NCBI GenBank assembly: GCA_945862135.1
Contig: CAMAYE010000008.1
Location: forward strand, 1-38,995
Direction: 5' to 3'
DNA length: 38,995 nt
Origin: Bordetella parapertussis
GTDB taxonomy: Bacteria > Pseudomonadota > Gammaproteobacteria > Burkholderiales > SG8-41
A program made the position numbers and the translations under genes. Numbering within the stretch: position 1 is the first letter of the stretch; the number at the start of each line of letters is the position of its first letter. The notes under the pieces were generated by a model, which saw nothing but the letters and a program-made list of their open reading frames with translations, was not told the origin of the DNA and ran no database searches. This document shows positions 3 through 9,672 of this stretch, in pieces.

Positions 3-1499
3 GGCAATGAAGCCGATCTCGGCGTAGGTGAGCTGGCCGGCCTGCTGGTCGATGATCCGCATACCGATGCGATCCTGCTGTTCATGGAAACCATCCGCGA
101 CGCCAAACATCTGGCGGATGCCGCGCGCCGCGCCTACGATGCCAACAAACCGGTCATCGTTTACAAGCTCGGTCGCTCCGAAGTGGGCCAGGATCTGGCG
201 GCCTCCCATACCGGCGCGATGGCCGGTACTGATGAAGCGGTCGATGCCTTTTTCAAGGCCCATGCGATGCTGCGTGTGGATACGCTGGAGGCGCTGTTCG
301 AACTGCCGGCGCTGGTCAAAGGTCGCAAGCCCAACAAAAATCACCGCGTCGCATCCATGACCACGACTGGCGGCGGCGCCGCCTGTGTGGTTGACCGCAT
401 CGGTACCTACGGCGTTGATGTGGTCGGCCCAACCGATGCGCTGGTCGCCAAACTGGCGCAACAGAACATCACGATTAACAAATCGCGAATCACCGACCTG
501 ACGCTGGCCGGCGCGAAAAAGGAAATTTACGGCGGCGTGCTCAATGCGCTGCTGCAATCCGACCATTGCGACCTTGTGCTCGCAGTGGCCGGCAGCTCGG
601 CGCAGTTCCAGCCGCAGATCGCCGTTGAACCGATGGTTGAAGCTAATCGCGGCGACAAAGCCCTGGCCGTATTCCTCGCGCCGCATGCCGAAGCCTCATT
701 GAAACTGCTGGCCAGTGCAGGCGTCGCCGGTTTCCGCACGCCGGAATCCTGCGCCGATTCGATTCGTGCATGGAAACAATGGGTTCCGCCGCTGGCGATT
801 CCTGCAGCGGATGCCAAACGCACCGCTGCGGCCGTTGCATTACTGAAAGCAGCGCCGGGCAAACAGCTCAATGAACAACAGGCTTGCGGCGTTTTCGGCG
901 CGCTGGGCGTTCCACAAGCACAGACTGCGGTGATGGCGGATGCCCATGCCAAGGTGGATATCGGTTATCCGGTGGTCGCCAAAATCCTTTCGCCCGACAT
1001 TGCGCACAAGACCGATGCCGGCGGCGTGGTACTGAACATCGCTGATGCAGCAGCGCTGAAGCAGGCGGCAACCGATATCTTCACCCGCGTCAAAGCCAAA
1101 CATCCGCAGGCAAAACTGAACGGTATCTTGGTGCAACGCATGGAGCGCGGCCTCGCCGAAGTGATCGTCGGTTACAAACGCGATCCGCAGGTCGGGCCGC
1201 TGGTGGTGATCGGCGTCGGTGGTGTCCTCGCCGAGATTTACAAGGATTTCGCGATGCGCCTGGCACCGGTGACACCGGAAACCGCACTGCAGATGATCGA
1301 TGAAGTCAAAGGACTCGCGGTGATCCGCGGCTACCGTGGCATGACCAAAGGTGACTGCAAGGCGCTGGCGGAAGCGGTGGCGGCTTTCTCGCAACTGGCC
1401 GCCTTCGATGACATCGCCGAAGCTGAAATCAACCCGCTGATCGTCCGCAAAGAAGGCGAAGGCGTGGTGGCCGTCGATGGACTGATCGTCCGCCAATAA
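3..1499 (+). CDS. NDP-forming acyl-CoA ligase (acetyl-CoA synthetase-like), 5' end cut by window
   Basis: The frame is open from the first complete codon at base 3, and the residues before the first Met read as the normal family sequence, so the gene starts outside the window. The visible 498 residues cover the succinyl-CoA-ligase-like part (SHTGAMAG, the region of the phosphorylated His in ADP-forming acyl-CoA synthetases) and a C-terminal ATP-grasp domain (GYPVVAKILSPDIAHKTDAG, VIVGYKRDPQVGPLVVIGVGG, EINPLIV). The family interconverts acyl-CoA plus NDP and Pi with acid, CoA and NTP in the cytoplasm. The position upstream of a dehydratase/lyase cluster suggests activation of a short-chain acid released by that pathway; this is inference. 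The substrate cannot be read from sequence. Confidence 0.9.
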   Translation, partial: GNEADLGVGELAGLLVDDPHTDAILLFMETIRDAKHLADAARRAYDANKPVIVYKLGRSEVGQDLAASHTGAMAGTDEAVDAFFKAHAMLRVDTLEALFELPALVKGRKPNKNHRVASMTTTGGGAACVVDRIGTYGVDVVGPTDALVAKLAQQNITINKSRITDLTLAGAKKEIYGGVLNALLQSDHCDLVLAVAGSSAQFQPQIAVEPMVEANRGDKALAVFLAPHAEASLKLLASAGVAGFRTPESCADSIRAWKQWVPPLAIPAADAKRTAAAVALLKAAPGKQLNEQQACGVFGALGVPQAQTAVMADAHAKVDIGYPVVAKILSPDIAHKTDAGGVVLNIADAAALKQAATDIFTRVKAKHPQAKLNGILVQRMERGLAEVIVGYKRDPQVGPLVVIGVGGVLAEIYKDFAMRLAPVTPETALQMIDEVKGLAVIRGYRGMTKGDCKALAEAVAAFSQLAAFDDIAEAEINPLIVRKEGEGVVAVDGLIVRQ

Positions 1500-1510
1500 A
1501 GCGTCAAGCA

Positions 1511-1532
1511 GCCGGGTCGCCCGCGACCCGGC
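1511..1532 (+). promoter_or_regulatory. Strong GC hairpin directly in front of the selenoprotein Shine-Dalgarno
   Basis: A perfect 9-bp inverted repeat (GCCGGGTCG / CGACCCGGC) with a 4-nt CCCG loop lies between the ligase stop and the next start. It is followed at once by GGAGG (1533-1537), not by a T-run, so it is not a normal Rho-independent terminator. It could stabilise the processed 3' end of the upstream message or tune ribosome access to the downstream gene. The structure is seen directly; the role is inference. Confidence 0.6.
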
Positions 1533-1547
1533 GGAGGAGCGTCACAA

Positions 1548-2066
1548 GTGGCACAAAGTCTGGGCAACAAGCTGGATACGGGGGATCGTTTTCCTGATCT
1601 CGATCTATCGCTGGTCAGCGGCGGCGCGCAGCGCTTGTCCACGCTGACCGCGGGCCAGTGGAGCGTGGTGCTGCTGTACCGCGGCGACTGGTGAAGATAC
1701 TGCCGTCAGCAGTTGGCTGACTATCAAACATGGCTCCCCGATCTGAAACAGCTCGGCATCTCGGTCATCGCGGCTTCGGTCGATACGCCGGAAGCGGCGC
1801 AGCAATCCGTGAGCACGAACAAACTCTCGTTTGCGGTGGCCCACAGCCTGGATTATCAGGACATCAGCCGCCGCACTGGCGCATTCATCGAGCATGAGCG
1901 CAAAATCCTGCAAGCTACGGGATTCCTGCTTAAACCCGACCTGACGCTACATGTCGCCACTTATTCCACCGGACCCATCGGCCGTCTCACGCCCAACGAC
2001 GTGAGTTCAGTCGTACGACTCAACCTTGCCAAAACAACAGCACCCCAAGGAGAAAAAACATGTTGA
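1548..2066 (+). CDS. Peroxiredoxin-like selenoprotein (AhpC/TSA fold, UxxC), Sec encoded by TGA at 1692-1694
   Basis: The reading frame starts at GTG 1548, ten bases after GGAGG, and gives 172 residues if the TGA at codon 49 is read as selenocysteine. The N-terminal half has the redoxin hallmarks (GDRFPDLDL, VVLLYRGDW). The codon after YRGDW is TGA, exactly where relatives carry the first Cys of WCPYC; the frame resumes with RYCRQQLADY and continues through a normal thioredoxin-fold C-terminus (ISVIAASVDTPEAA, ATGFLLKPD). The active site would therefore be U-R-Y-C. The protein probably reduces peroxides or disulfides in the cytoplasm using a thiol donor. The stop overlaps the start of the MmgE/PrpD gene (2060), so the gene is likely translationally coupled. 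The alternative is a nonsense-mutated pseudogene, but the exact active-site position, intact frame on both sides and SECIS-like hairpin argue against that. Standard gene callers would start it wrongly at TTG 1713. Confidence 0.85.
1696..1725 (+). promoter_or_regulatory. Candidate bacterial SECIS element
   Basis: Just 3' of the TGA codon the RNA can fold as GAUA (1696-1699), a five-base 5' bulge CUGCC, a perfect 6-bp stem GUCAGC (1705-1710), loop AGUUG (1711-1715), GCUGAC (1716-1721) and UAUC (1722-1725). The loop has G as its second base and lies about 17-20 bases after the UGA, within the range known for SelB-dependent bacterial SECIS elements. A U lies in the bulge, as in E. coli fdhF. The hairpin is within the coding sequence, as expected in bacteria. 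Confidence 0.8.
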
Positions 2067-3418
2067 TGGAACAACTCGCCGACTACGCAATCCGCGAACA
2101 GACTTCGAAGCTGCCGCCGCAGGTGATCCACCATGCCAAACGCGCGGTGATCGACTGGTACGCGGCGCTGCTGCCTGGCAGCGTCGTCAATCCGGCGGTG
2201 CTGATGGAAGAGGCCTTTGCCGAAGATCTGGACCGCGGTCGTGCACGCCTTGCCACCGGCCGTCGCGCCACGCTGCGCGCTGCTGCGTTGATCAACGGTG
2301 CGGCTTCGCATTCGGTCGAGTTCGATGACATTTACCGGGATGCCGGTTACCACCCGGGCAGCCCGACCATCTCCGCGGCACTGGCTGCGGCACAAGCCTC
2401 CGGTGCTTCAGGTGACCGTTTCCTGCGCGGTGTGATCGTGGGCTACGAGATTTCCACGCGCATCGGCGAAGCGGTGATGCCGTCGCATTACAAGTACTGG
2501 CATACCACCGGCACCGTCGGATCGTTCGGTGCGGCGGCGGCAGCAGCCACCGTGCTCGGTGCGAACAAGGAACAATTCATGCACGCGATGGCCACGGTCG
2601 GCAGTTTTGCTTCCGGCCTGCAGCAGGCCTTCCGTTCACAGGCAATGACCAAGCCGCTGCACGGCGGCCATGCGGCCGATGCCGGCTGCTGGGCGGCGAT
2701 GGCGGCGATGAAAGGCCTCACCGGCGCGCTCGACATGCTCGAAGGCGAAGTCGGTTTCGGCAATGCGATGAGTGTGAATCCGGACTGGAGCAAGGCGACC
2801 AAGGGTCTGGGCGTGGATTACCACATCAACCACATGACCTTCAAAAACCACGGCTGCTGCGGTCACACCTTCCCGTCGATTGACGGCGCGCTGCACCTGC
2901 AACAGCAGCACGGTTTCACGCACAAGGATGTGAAACACATCAAGCTGCACACCTACAAGGCCGGCCTCAACATCATCGACAACAACAATCCCGAGGGCGA
3001 ATACCAGGCCAAGTTCAGCATTCAGTACACCGTCGCCCACGCGCTGGTGCGCGGCAGCGTGCGCCTCAATGCTTTCGATCCCGATCATCTCAACGATCCC
3101 GAAATTCGCGCGCTGCTGAAAAAGATCGAGCCGATTGCCGACCCCGATATTTCTGCGGGTTATCCGAACCGCCGCGAGTCGCGAGTGGAAATCGAATTGA
3201 ACGACGGTCGCAAGTTTGAACACTTCCAGCCTTACCGCAAAGGCGATCCGGAACTGCCGCTGACCGACGAGGAACTCGACGGCAAGTTCCTTGAACTCGC
3301 GGAGCCGGTGATCGGCAAGGCTGCAGCCGCATCTTTGCTGCAGCAACTGCGGGATACCGAGAAACTGGCGAACGTTGATTACGACACTGGTGCCGGTACG
3401 AAACGGGCTACTGGCTGA
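2060..3418 (+). CDS. MmgE/PrpD family protein (2-methylcitrate dehydratase-like)
   Basis: The 452-residue length and sequence fit the MmgE/PrpD family: helical N-terminal domain with AVIDWYAALLPGS and NGAASHSVEFDD, then YHPGSPTISAALA, the glycine/alanine-rich GTVGSFGAAAAAATVLG, KPLHGGHAADAG, and a C-terminal domain starting near VDYHINHMTFKNHGCCGH. Characterised members dehydrate 2-methylcitrate or act on itaconyl-type and related carboxylates, but most paralogues next to Bug receptors have unknown substrates. The ATG overlaps the stop of the selenoprotein gene by 7 bases and has AAGGAG at 2047-2052. Two Bug receptors and a PEP-mutase-type lyase follow on the same strand, pointing to a carboxylic-acid degradation operon. 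Confidence 0.9.
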   Translation: MLMEQLADYAIREQTSKLPPQVIHHAKRAVIDWYAALLPGSVVNPAVLMEEAFAEDLDRGRARLATGRRATLRAAALINGAASHSVEFDDIYRDAGYHPGSPTISAALAAAQASGASGDRFLRGVIVGYEISTRIGEAVMPSHYKYWHTTGTVGSFGAAAAAATVLGANKEQFMHAMATVGSFASGLQQAFRSQAMTKPLHGGHAADAGCWAAMAAMKGLTGALDMLEGEVGFGNAMSVNPDWSKATKGLGVDYHINHMTFKNHGCCGHTFPSIDGALHLQQQHGFTHKDVKHIKLHTYKAGLNIIDNNNPEGEYQAKFSIQYTVAHALVRGSVRLNAFDPDHLNDPEIRALLKKIEPIADPDISAGYPNRRESRVEIELNDGRKFEHFQPYRKGDPELPLTDEELDGKFLELAEPVIGKAAAASLLQQLRDTEKLANVDYDTGAGTKRATG

Positions 3419-4443: not shown

Positions 4444-5439
4444 ATGACCAGAACATCGCAAATGAAAATTCCAGCAGCCTGGCGCTGCCTGACCGTTCTA
4501 TTCGTCCTTTTGCTGCCGATTGCCGCACTTGCTCAAACAGACTTCCCCAACAAACCCATTCGACTGATTGTGCCCCTCGCGCCCGGCGGCACTGGGGATA
4601 CGCTGGCACGCCTGTCCGCCGAGTTGCTTTCGTCCTCACTGGGCCAATCCACCGTGGTGGATAACCGGCCGGGCGCCAACGGCATCATCGGCATGGAGCT
4701 GGTTGCCCAGGCCGCACCCGATGGCTACACGCTGTTGTCCGGTTCCAGCGGCAATACTGCGCTGAACGCAGCCCTGCACGGTGACAAGCTGCGCTTTGAC
4801 GTGGAACGCGATTTTTCGCCGGTGATCCATGTTGCGACGACAACTTCGGTGGTGGTGGCCCACCCCAGCCTGCCGGTGAAGTCGATTCCCGAATTGATAT
4901 CACTCGCCCGCAGCAAACCCGGCTCGATTCACTACGCTTCGGCTGGCATCGGCTCGGCCGTACATCTTGGCAATGCGTTATTCGAGAATATGGCCGGCGT
5001 GCGCATGAATCACGTTCCCTACAAGGGCAGCACACCGGGACGAATTGCTGTGGTACAGGGTGAAGCCCAACTCATGTTTGACGGCCTGTTGCCGGCCCTG
5101 CCGCTGATCCGTCAAGGCAGGCTGCGCGCGCTGGCGGTAACCGGGACGCAACGGTCGTCTGTCGTGCCCGAATTGCCCACCATCGCCGAAACCCTGCCTG
5201 GATACCGCGCCGAAACGTGGTATGCCCTGTTTGCGCCCGCACGGGTCTCTCCGGTCGTGGTTAATAAACTCCACGCTGCGGTTGCCGCCGGACTGAAGCG
5301 TGCAGACGTTGAACAGCGACTGCGATCACAGGGTGCCACACCCGCCGGCACCTCCCCCGGCGATTTGGCGCAGCTGCTAAAACAGGAAACCGCGCTGTGG
5401 AGAAAAGTCATCAAGGATGCCGGCATCCGGGCCCAATAA
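4444..5439 (+). CDS. Bug/TctC-family periplasmic solute-binding receptor (second)
   Basis: A 331-residue protein with a signal peptide (hydrophobic core VLFVLLLPIAALAQ) and the Bug order of motifs: NKPIRLIVPLAPGGTGDTLA, TVVDNRPGANGIIG, PDGYTLLSGSSG, MNHVPYKGSTPG. A second in-frame Met at 4462 is an alternative start because no strong Shine-Dalgarno is seen at 4444. It follows the first receptor by 22 bp, and the two are only moderately similar, so they may recognise different ligands. The mature protein acts in the periplasm. Confidence 0.92.
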   Translation: MTRTSQMKIPAAWRCLTVLFVLLLPIAALAQTDFPNKPIRLIVPLAPGGTGDTLARLSAELLSSSLGQSTVVDNRPGANGIIGMELVAQAAPDGYTLLSGSSGNTALNAALHGDKLRFDVERDFSPVIHVATTTSVVVAHPSLPVKSIPELISLARSKPGSIHYASAGIGSAVHLGNALFENMAGVRMNHVPYKGSTPGRIAVVQGEAQLMFDGLLPALPLIRQGRLRALAVTGTQRSSVVPELPTIAETLPGYRAETWYALFAPARVSPVVVNKLHAAVAAGLKRADVEQRLRSQGATPAGTSPGDLAQLLKQETALWRKVIKDAGIRAQ

Positions 5440-6474: not shown

Positions 6475-8232
6475 ATGAGCTCTACTGCGCGACGCGTTTG
6501 CCAGTCAGGTCTCGCGCTCGCGCTGTGGGCAGGGCTGTGTCTGCCGCTGCAGGCGCAGAGCGATCGGCCGGCGCAACCGGAACCCGCCAGCGGCCACAGC
6601 GAAAAGCAGCTCGCTCACGCGCGAGTTCATATGGTTGCGGCAGCGCATCCGCTGGCCGTGGCCGCGGGTCTGGAGATTCTTGAGGCAGGCGGCACTGCCA
6701 GTGATGCAATGATCGCGGTGCAGCTCGTATTGAATCTGGTTGAGCCGCACGCATCGGGCCTGGGTGGCGGCGCCTTCCTGCTGCACTACGACGCAGCCAG
6801 CCGCAAACTTCAGGCTTACGACGGACGCGAGACCGCACCTGCTGCGGCAACGCCCGAACTGTTCATGCGTGTCGGCAGGCCGATGCCCTTTCGCGAAGCG
6901 GTCAACGGCGGCCGCTCGGTCGGCACGCCGGGCGTGCCCCGCCTGCTCGAAACCGCACATCGCAAACACGGCAAACTGCCGTGGGCCAGGCTGTTCAAAC
7001 CCGCGATTGAGCTTGCTGAACAGGGCTTCCCGTTATCAAACCGTGTACATGCACTGCTGCAGCGTAAGGGCGCGCTGGGCAGTGAAGCGGCTGCACGTGC
7101 GTACTTTCTGACTGTGGACGGCACACCCAAACCAGCGGGCACCATGCTGCGCAATCCTGAGTTCGCCCGCACCTTGCGTGCGATTGCTGCAGGCGGTGCC
7201 GATGCGTTTTATCGCGGGGAAATTGCCATCGACATTGTCGATGCCGTGCGCAAACACCCTTCCAATCCGGGCATCCTCAGCACAGCAGATCTTGCCGACT
7301 ATCAGGTGCGTGAAGTTGACCCTTTGTGCGCGCCATATCGCGTTTTCCGCGTCTGCAGCATGCCGCCCTCATCCTCCGGCGGCATCGCCGTGCTGCAAAT
7401 GCTGGGCATGCTGTCGCATCGGGATATGTCTGCAGTCGCACCGGGCTCCGCACAGGCGGTCCATCTGCTCGCCGAAGCGGGTCGGCTGGCCTATGCCGAC
7501 CGCAACCGCTGGGTTGCCGATGATCGTTATGTCGAAGTGCCGGTGCGCGGTCTGCTTGATACGGCTTACCTTGCCGCGCGGACAAAATTGATCCAGCCCG
7601 GCCACTCCATGGGCAAGGCAGAGGCCGGGGTGCCTCCTGGCGCCCGGATCGCCTATGCCGACGACACCGTTGAAGAAATCGCCGGCACCAGCCATATCGC
7701 CATTGTTGACGGCAAGGGCAACGCCGTTTCGATGACCACGACCATTGAGAATTTTTTCGGCAGCAGAATCATGGTGCACGGCTTCCTGCTCAACAACCAG
7801 CTGACTGACTTCAATTTCAACCCCTTCGACAACGGGCGTCAGGTCGCCAATGCGGTCGCGCCGGGGAAACGGCCGCGCAGCTCCATGGCGCCCACAGTGG
7901 TATTCAACAGCAACGGCGACCTGCATCTGGTGATAGGCTCACCAGGCGGCAGCAGGATCATCAACTACGTTGCCAAGACGCTGATCGCGACGCTGGACTG
8001 GGGTCTTGATATCCAGGCGGCCATCGCACTGCCCAACGCGGGCAGCCGCAACGGCCCGACTGAAATCGAGCGTGGCACGTCTTACGAAGCACTGGCAGCT
8101 CCGCTGGCCACAATGGGACATGAAGTACAGACGCTGGACATGACCAGCGGCCTGCACGGCATCATGCGGGTAAATGACGGTTGGCAGGGCGGCGCGGACC
8201 CGCGCCGTGAAGGCATTGCAAAGGGACGGTAA
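6475..8232 (+). CDS. Gamma-glutamyltransferase (GGT/cephalosporin acylase family)
   Basis: ATG 6475 was chosen because it starts a clear signal peptide (SGLALALWAGLCLPLQAQ); the open frame extends upstream into the lyase gene but those residues are not family-like. The 585-residue precursor has the large-subunit motifs HPLAVAAGLEILEAGGTASD and EPHASGLGGGAFLLHYD (the oxyanion/gamma-glutamyl site region) and the autoprocessing site GTSHIAIVD, with T405 as predicted nucleophile and new N-terminus of the small subunit. Family enzymes hydrolyse or transfer gamma-glutamyl groups from glutathione or related amides in the periplasm. It is 10 bp after the lyase gene and before leuCD, an unusual position that may mean it unmasks an amide-linked substrate. 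Confidence 0.9.
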   Translation: MSSTARRVCQSGLALALWAGLCLPLQAQSDRPAQPEPASGHSEKQLAHARVHMVAAAHPLAVAAGLEILEAGGTASDAMIAVQLVLNLVEPHASGLGGGAFLLHYDAASRKLQAYDGRETAPAAATPELFMRVGRPMPFREAVNGGRSVGTPGVPRLLETAHRKHGKLPWARLFKPAIELAEQGFPLSNRVHALLQRKGALGSEAAARAYFLTVDGTPKPAGTMLRNPEFARTLRAIAAGGADAFYRGEIAIDIVDAVRKHPSNPGILSTADLADYQVREVDPLCAPYRVFRVCSMPPSSSGGIAVLQMLGMLSHRDMSAVAPGSAQAVHLLAEAGRLAYADRNRWVADDRYVEVPVRGLLDTAYLAARTKLIQPGHSMGKAEAGVPPGARIAYADDTVEEIAGTSHIAIVDGKGNAVSMTTTIENFFGSRIMVHGFLLNNQLTDFNFNPFDNGRQVANAVAPGKRPRSSMAPTVVFNSNGDLHLVIGSPGGSRIINYVAKTLIATLDWGLDIQAAIALPNAGSRNGPTEIERGTSYEALAAPLATMGHEVQTLDMTSGLHGIMRVNDGWQGGADPRREGIAKGR

Positions 8233-8262
8233 CAATGAAATGCGTGAAACGAGGACACTGAC

Positions 8263-9672
8263 ATGGCACTGACGATGTTTGAAAAAATCTGGAACAGCCA
8301 CGTGATTCTGGAAAAACCCGATGGCGACGCATTGCTGCACATCGACCGCAATCTGGTGCACGAAGGCTCATTCCATGCCTTCGGTGCGCTGGCCAAGGAA
8401 GGCCGCAAGGTGCGCAAACCCTCACAAAATTTTGCAGTGGCCGACCATTACGTCCCGACCGTCGGCCGCGAGCGCGGCGTCGAAGGCGCGGAAGACGCCG
8501 ATGCACGCCACATGATCCGGTTGCTTGAGGAAAATGCACGCGTGAACGGCATCGCCCATTACGGCATCGACGATGACCGTCAGGGGATCGTGCATGTCAT
8601 CGGCCCCGAACTCGGCATCACCCAGCCGGGGCTGACAATCACCTGCGGCGATTCACATACCTCGACACACGGCGCGCTCGGCGCCTATGCCTTCGGCACC
8701 GGCGCATCCCAGCTGAAACAGATTCTGGCGACACAATGCCTGTGGCTGAAACGACCGAAAACACTGCGCATTGTCGTCGATGGCCAGGTGGCCCCCGGAA
8801 TAACCGGCAAGGATGTAGTGCTGGCAATCATTGCCAAAATCGGTACCGCCGGCGCCACCGGCCATGTCATTGAATTCGCCGGATCGGCCATCCGCGGCCT
8901 CACGGTCGAAGGCCGGCTAACGGTGTGCAATATGGCGATCGAAGCCGGCGGACGCGCCGGCATGATCGCGCCGGACGACAAGGTTTATGAATACCTGCAC
9001 GGCCGCGAGTTCTCACCCAAAGGCGCCGAATGGGATCGCGCATTGACGCAATGGCGCGAGCTGCCCTCCGACGACGGTGCGCGCTTCGACCGCGAAGTGA
9101 CGCTCGACGGCTCGAAACTCGAACCGATGCTGACCTGGGGCACCAGCCCCGAGGAAGCGCTGCCGGTCACCGGCCGCATCCCCGACCCGAAATCGCTGGG
9201 TGACGCCAACCAGCGTGCGCATGCGGAACAGGCGCTGGCCTATATGGACCTCAAACCCGGCATGGCGCTGACCGACATCAAAATCGACCGCGCCTTCATC
9301 GGCAGTTGCACTAACGGCCGCATTGAAGACCTGCGCTCCGCTGCTGCGGTACTGAAAGGCCGCAAGGCGGTCATTCCGGCCTGGGTATCGCCGGGCTCCA
9401 CCGCGCTGAAACGACAGGCCGAGGCCGAGGGCCTGGACAAGGTCTTCCTCGACGCCGGCGTCGAGTGGCGTGCGTCAGGCTGCTCCAGCTGTGCTGCGAT
9501 GAACGGCGACAAGGTGCCGCCGGGCATGCGCAGCGCCTCCACCTCCAACCGCAATTTTGAAGGCCGCCAGGGCAAGGGCGCCCGCACCCACCTGATGAGC
9601 CCGGCGATGACCGCCGCGGCTATTGTCACCGGCCGAGTTACCGACGTACGCACCCTGAAAACGGAAAACTGA
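8263..9672 (+). CDS. leuC: LeuC-type isopropylmalate dehydratase large subunit (4Fe-4S hydratase)
   Basis: The 469-residue protein has all LeuC signatures: TCGDSHTSTHGALGAYAFG, FIGSCTNGRIEDLRSA with the first cluster cysteine, and SGCSSCAAMNGD with the C-x-x-C pair for the 4Fe-4S cluster, then STSNRNFEGRQGKGARTHL. It forms a complex with the small subunit encoded one base downstream. The ATG is preceded by GAGGA. No leuA or leuB is nearby; instead a lyase, MmgE/PrpD and Bug receptors flank it. It may be a catabolic paralogue (alkylmalate or dimethylmaleate hydratase type) rather than the leucine-biosynthetic enzyme; sequence alone does not settle that. Confidence 0.93.
   Translation: MALTMFEKIWNSHVILEKPDGDALLHIDRNLVHEGSFHAFGALAKEGRKVRKPSQNFAVADHYVPTVGRERGVEGAEDADARHMIRLLEENARVNGIAHYGIDDDRQGIVHVIGPELGITQPGLTITCGDSHTSTHGALGAYAFGTGASQLKQILATQCLWLKRPKTLRIVVDGQVAPGITGKDVVLAIIAKIGTAGATGHVIEFAGSAIRGLTVEGRLTVCNMAIEAGGRAGMIAPDDKVYEYLHGREFSPKGAEWDRALTQWRELPSDDGARFDREVTLDGSKLEPMLTWGTSPEEALPVTGRIPDPKSLGDANQRAHAEQALAYMDLKPGMALTDIKIDRAFIGSCTNGRIEDLRSAAAVLKGRKAVIPAWVSPGSTALKRQAEAEGLDKVFLDAGVEWRASGCSSCAAMNGDKVPPGMRSASTSNRNFEGRQGKGARTHLMSPAMTAAAIVTGRVTDVRTLKTEN

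Follow-up and report, generated by a model that had tools for sequence, protein, structure and literature searches.

A predicted peroxiredoxin-like UxxC selenoprotein and its covarying bSECIS hairpin in Burkholderiales

In the window examined here (the whole stretch of 38,995 nt that was analysed), the forward-strand gene at 1548-2066 is, with high confidence, a genuine selenoprotein gene, whose in-frame UGA would be read as selenocysteine (Sec) at residue 49 through SelB and a downstream hairpin, giving a redox protein with a UxxC active site. The computational support covers the reading frame, the conservation of the TGA, purifying selection downstream of it, the Sec machinery of the genome and a covarying hairpin, and we infer Sec insertion at codon 49 with near certainty.

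The gene encodes a Sec-containing AhpC/TSA (peroxiredoxin-like) protein of 172 residues. Its GTG start at 1548 is preceded by a Shine-Dalgarno-like GGAGGAG (1533-1539, 8 nt before the GTG), a similar element is present in the orthologues, and these have the same length and begin with ATG or GTG at the equivalent position. Translation of 1548-2066 meets a single internal TGA (1692-1694, codon 49 in the motif RGDW-U-RYC), followed three residues on by the TGC codon of Cys52 (1701-1703), the UxxC partner of Sec49 and an invariant alignment column, and then an open frame up to the TGA stop at 2064-2066, which overlaps the ATG at 2060 of the next gene by 7 nt. The Pfam AhpC-TSA domain (PF00578) spans both sides of the internal TGA (residues 12-124; 67.8 bits against a gathering cut-off of 26). 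For this gene, the program-made list of open reading frames holds only a 117-aa fragment starting at TTG 1713, which matched no NCBIfam model. The initial annotation had described an intact redoxin frame broken once at codon 49, running on to a stop that overlaps its neighbour and missed or mis-started by standard gene calling, and all three points are borne out by these data. In comparisons with four relatives of the same genus, dN/dS was 0.18-0.33 before the UGA and 0.12-0.23 after it; the coding region downstream of the TGA is thus under purifying selection, which argues that the part after the UGA is translated.

A TGA at exactly codon 49 is present in 20 loci of the clade, this one and 19 others in related genomes, each with Cys at the third residue after it. 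An order-wide sample of 399 genomes yielded the TGA form in five further genomes (G122, G129, G205, G242 and G335), and in a phylum sample of 398 genomes the source gene was the sole TGA form among the matches listed. Nearly all stop-free homologues have Cys at the Sec49 column, for example in CPYC, CPIC or CPLC, including the nearest Cys homologue (G565:C166, motif RGSWCPYC); two, L118 and L120, the latter reading GGHSESC, were not resolved as Cys there. Because the TGA stands at the equal codon in all 20 clade loci and Cys occupies this site in stop-free homologues, its conservation is more than chance. The residue that follows Sec is Arg only in the copies of this genus, Pro in other Sec relatives and Ala in one. 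When 76 proteins were placed in a maximum-likelihood tree, 25 Sec forms clustered with one long-branched Cys form (L097), so that 25 of the 26 members are of the Sec type; the fork of this clade is moderately supported (87/83), with long branches flagged. A pair of Sec proteins, L045 and L046, belongs to another Sec peroxiredoxin-like group of the same family (RGHW-U-PYCNLEL). A full selA was not found in their genomes, which are 88% and 72% complete. The pair is placed elsewhere in the tree, apart from the main Sec clade, and Sec has therefore arisen or been kept more than once in the superfamily.

Downstream of the Sec codon, a bacterial SECIS (bSECIS) hairpin, GUCAGC-AGUUG-GCUGAC, occupies 1705-1721 on the same strand and begins 10 nt after the UGA. 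Published rules for such elements specify an apical loop of 3-9 nt, a stem of 4-16 bp, a G within the first two bases of the loop, a distance of 16-37 nt from the UGA and a minimum free energy of at most -7.5 kcal/mol (PMC13188914). The hairpin satisfies all of them, with a 5-nt AGUUG loop that has G at its second position and lies 16 nt after the UGA, a 6-bp stem and a folding energy of -10.9 kcal/mol for the region. In one sequence such a structure is weak evidence, since the hairpin region by itself folds with a z-score of only -1.29 and some 6-bp SECIS-like hairpin follows 163 of the 1296 TGAs of the window; the strength of the predicted element comes from comparison among homologues. The 17-nt element is kept in 20/20 loci with at most one unpaired cell. 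Among 11 members of the nearer subclade, codon pairs encoding the same residue are identical at five of the positions +4 to +9 after the UGA and in 36/37 cases at the sixth, whereas synonymous identity at neighbouring codons is mostly 0.3-0.7. The other subclade has the stem GCCGGC/GCCGGC or GCCGGC/GUCGGC, so that between subclades pair 1706/1720 changes from U-A to C-G and pair 1708/1718 from A-U to G-C. Two of these base changes alter amino acids (Q54 to R and D58 to G), while each partner base change is silent, a pattern that maintenance of the RNA pairs would predict. The covariation score of the hairpin was 0.407, compared with 0.237 in shuffles (0/500 reached 0.407) and at most 0.112 when the element was slid; the stem changes follow the subclades, and few independent covariation events may therefore be involved.

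The Arg codon after Sec is always AGA or AGG in this genus (region 1695-1725), where GATA beside the UGA could pair with a TATC that follows the hairpin to form a lower stem; this is 95.8% paired, but no better than shuffles. It had been suggested at the outset that Arg in U-R-Y-C may change redox behaviour; alternatively, RNA structure next to the UGA could account for the AGA/AGG codons.

The source genome (G000; 3.52 Mb in 310 contigs, 88% complete) encodes the machinery that such recoding would require. On contig C103, selA (8-1288; 557.8 bits), selB (1321-3204; 411.6 bits) and the tRNA-Sec gene selC (4905-4995; 75.9 bits, TCA anticodon) follow in that order. The selD gene (368.6 bits), which has an in-frame TGA of its own in GGGUGCKL, is broken by a contig end: it occupies 1 to about 850 on the reverse strand of C170 (L058), and its remaining end lies on C142 (start of L059). 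It adjoins mnmH, encoding tRNA 2-selenouridine synthase (498 bits versus 266). Between selB and selC lie a thioredoxin-reductase-like gene and a YaeQ gene (L057, 3364-4830); the former scored 228.7 bits, short of the cut-off of 343, is therefore not confirmed as a thioredoxin reductase, and is only a candidate for the reductant of the Sec protein. Across 120 related genomes, selA was present in 19/20 strong-score carriers of the TGA gene compared with 61/100 other relatives (Fisher p = 0.0017, with kinship ignored); the carrier in which it was not found, G009, is 84% complete. A separate observation concerns G081, where a frame at 7509-8666 that resembles SelB by eye lies close to a homologue (L064, G081:C19, near 6637). 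A second likely selenoprotein of the source genome is an AhpC/TSA peroxiredoxin (L060, G000:C230, 1886-2605, forward strand), with TGA at the classical peroxidatic Cys (FTFVU). A Sec-containing formate dehydrogenase was not found in this incomplete assembly, in which all matches to the model fell below the cut-off and lacked an in-frame TGA. The presence of selA, selB, selC and selD agrees with the initial annotation, which had taken the organism to make Sec; the other checks that it had proposed, an alignment of homologues and a bSECIS search, returned TGA or Cys at the site and a conserved, covarying hairpin within the published rules.

These data bear on two other readings of the codon. Decoding of the UGA as another amino acid, such as Trp, or its generic read-through with no Sec inserted could in principle apply to any in-frame UGA, and is here extremely improbable: the homologous column is Cys rather than Trp, a SECIS-type hairpin follows the codon, the genome has tRNA-Sec, and the same gene also terminates at UGA. 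A similarly minute probability attaches to the TGA being a genuine or spurious stop in a Cys gene that is decaying or was misread. Fragmentation and incompleteness of the assembly would be compatible with such an error, but the codon recurs in loci from many assemblies, dN/dS remains low beyond it, synonymous sites in the hairpin are frozen while its stem covaries, and the Sec machinery is complete; on homologues, selection and covariation, the pseudogene and sequencing-error readings were both rejected.

UxxC "Prx-like" selenoproteins of PF00578 are established predictions (PMC1088965, PMC2398784, PMC13188914). They have been described as a "Prx-like protein" with UxxC (PMC1088965), as "Prx-like 1" in the Global Ocean Sampling survey (PMC2398784), and as Prx-like thiol:disulfide oxidoreductases with UxxC or UxxU (PMC13188914, Table 1). 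The present protein resembles this set in its PF00578 domain, in having UxxC (U49-R-Y-C52) in place of the TxxU of Sec-containing peroxiredoxins, in the bSECIS element directly downstream and in the existence of Cys homologues; the likeness to the set (representative, e.g., WP_010940744.1) is drawn from domain and motif rather than from sequence comparison. What distinguishes the clade is its occurrence in Burkholderiales, its motif RG[DH]W-U-[RPA]-YC and its lack of an NCBIfam name. With the PrxU-type Sec-peroxiredoxins (TxxU; NF040737) it shares the AhpC/TSA domain and a Sec in the active-site segment; unlike PrxU, in which Sec takes the Cys position of TxxC, Sec here takes the Thr position, and identity with PrxU was rejected (26.3 bits against a cut-off of 270). 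SelL-related proteins (NF040769) and ResA-like WAxxUGC proteins (NF041054) are distant relatives with a thioredoxin fold, of which Sec forms are known, and both assignments were likewise rejected (27.0 against 120 bits and 18.7 against 300 bits, respectively). The source protein passes no NCBIfam selenoprotein model, scoring well below every cut-off, and other clade members gave only weak E-values against the same models. CPYC/CPIC AhpC/TSA proteins of the same phylum share the domain, and their CxxC begins with a Cys at the column of Sec49, but they contain no UGA and have no need for SelB.

In a profile comparison with solved structures, the protein matches peroxiredoxins and ResA. Aligned to solved peroxiredoxins, Sec49 falls at the Thr of TxxC and Cys52 at the peroxidatic Cys, so that RGDWURYC departs from the classical motif PxxxT/SxxC; with Cys52 and Sec49 on these two columns, the site is best described as a UxxC of thioredoxin type in a peroxiredoxin-like domain. 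The original placing of the TGA at the catalytic Cys thus holds if this means the leading Cys of a CxxC as in thioredoxins, where homologues have Cys, but not for the classical peroxidatic Cys. A structure prediction from six close sequences gave no usable model (mean pLDDT 36). A C-terminal Cys is also kept in the genus, and its conservation is confounded because its TGY codon shares bases with the start codon ATG of the following gene (2060-2066).

In thioredoxin-type CxxC motifs the nucleophile is usually the first residue, and the pKa of Sec is lower than that of Cys. Both points indicate residue 49 as the attacking group, and the related Cys forms are two-Cys motifs (CPYC/CPIC). With Sec inserted, the protein might nevertheless be a peroxidase nearer to classical peroxiredoxins, with the main chemistry peroxidatic at Cys52 and Sec49 resolving; the profile alignment of the peroxidatic Cys of solved peroxiredoxins (TPVC) with Cys52, with Sec49 two positions ahead of the Pro/Val and near the Thr, speaks for this arrangement, which in view of the preceding points we regard as unlikely. 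On the preferred reading, in which Sec49 is the nucleophile, the product most probably works either as a thiol:disulfide oxidoreductase or as a peroxidase, cycling through a selenenylsulfide between Sec49 and Cys52; its substrate and reductant are more speculative. Ribosomes arriving at the UGA (1692-1694) would be met by SelB, which, carrying Sec-tRNA(UCA) and bound to the hairpin at 1705-1721, would insert Sec49. Translation would then continue to the UGA at 2064-2066, acting there as a normal stop, with the following gene starting in the overlap. The resulting thioredoxin-fold, peroxiredoxin-like oxidoreductase would have the active site Sec49-Arg-Tyr-Cys52: an oxidised substrate, either a disulfide or a peroxide, would most likely be attacked by Sec49, Cys52 would close a selenenylsulfide with it, and a thioredoxin- or glutathione-type system would reduce this bond.

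The overlapping downstream gene (2060-3418, forward strand) belongs to the MmgE/PrpD family, and upstream lies an acyl-CoA ligase gene of the NDP-forming type (84-1499, forward strand), probably truncated where the contig begins; its counterpart in G013 encodes 691 aa. The order in the genus is NDP-forming acyl-CoA ligase, selenoprotein, MmgE/PrpD and then a TctC-type binding protein, the latter assigned by sequence resemblance. Among carriers outside the genus, a conserved gene context was looked for and not found, the surroundings there being unrelated. The 7-nt overlap, together with the order of selenoprotein and MmgE/PrpD genes kept in a genus relative, would fit an internal UGA that also acts as a regulatory switch, in which stopping at codon 49 versus read-through couples MmgE/PrpD translation to selenium supply. 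The unrelated contexts outside the genus and the purifying selection on the protein after the UGA weigh against such a switch, and we consider it improbable.

The UxxC kind of selenoprotein is already known, and what is new is the branch, which is unnamed and nearly Sec-only, its host group, Burkholderiales, and the co-constraint of RNA and protein. A more far-reaching reading, on the whole less likely than not, is an unnamed, nearly Sec-only UxxC Prx-like clade centred on Burkholderiales in which the SECIS element shapes the protein (Q/D to R/G at residues 54/58, with silent partners), and in which the Arg of this genus and the MmgE/PrpD overlap may link an organic-acid gene cluster to the supply of selenium. 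For Betaproteobacteria, the sole selenoprotein reported by a 2006 survey was formate dehydrogenase (PMC1794560); later literature was searched lightly. With two Sec redox genes and a Sec-type selD seen in the source genome, uncultured Burkholderiales very probably use Sec beyond formate dehydrogenase. Standard callers split or miss the gene and no family model covers the clade, so that the finding offers a ready basis for such a model. The hairpin, in turn, is a clean natural example of an RNA structure that limits both codons and amino acids.
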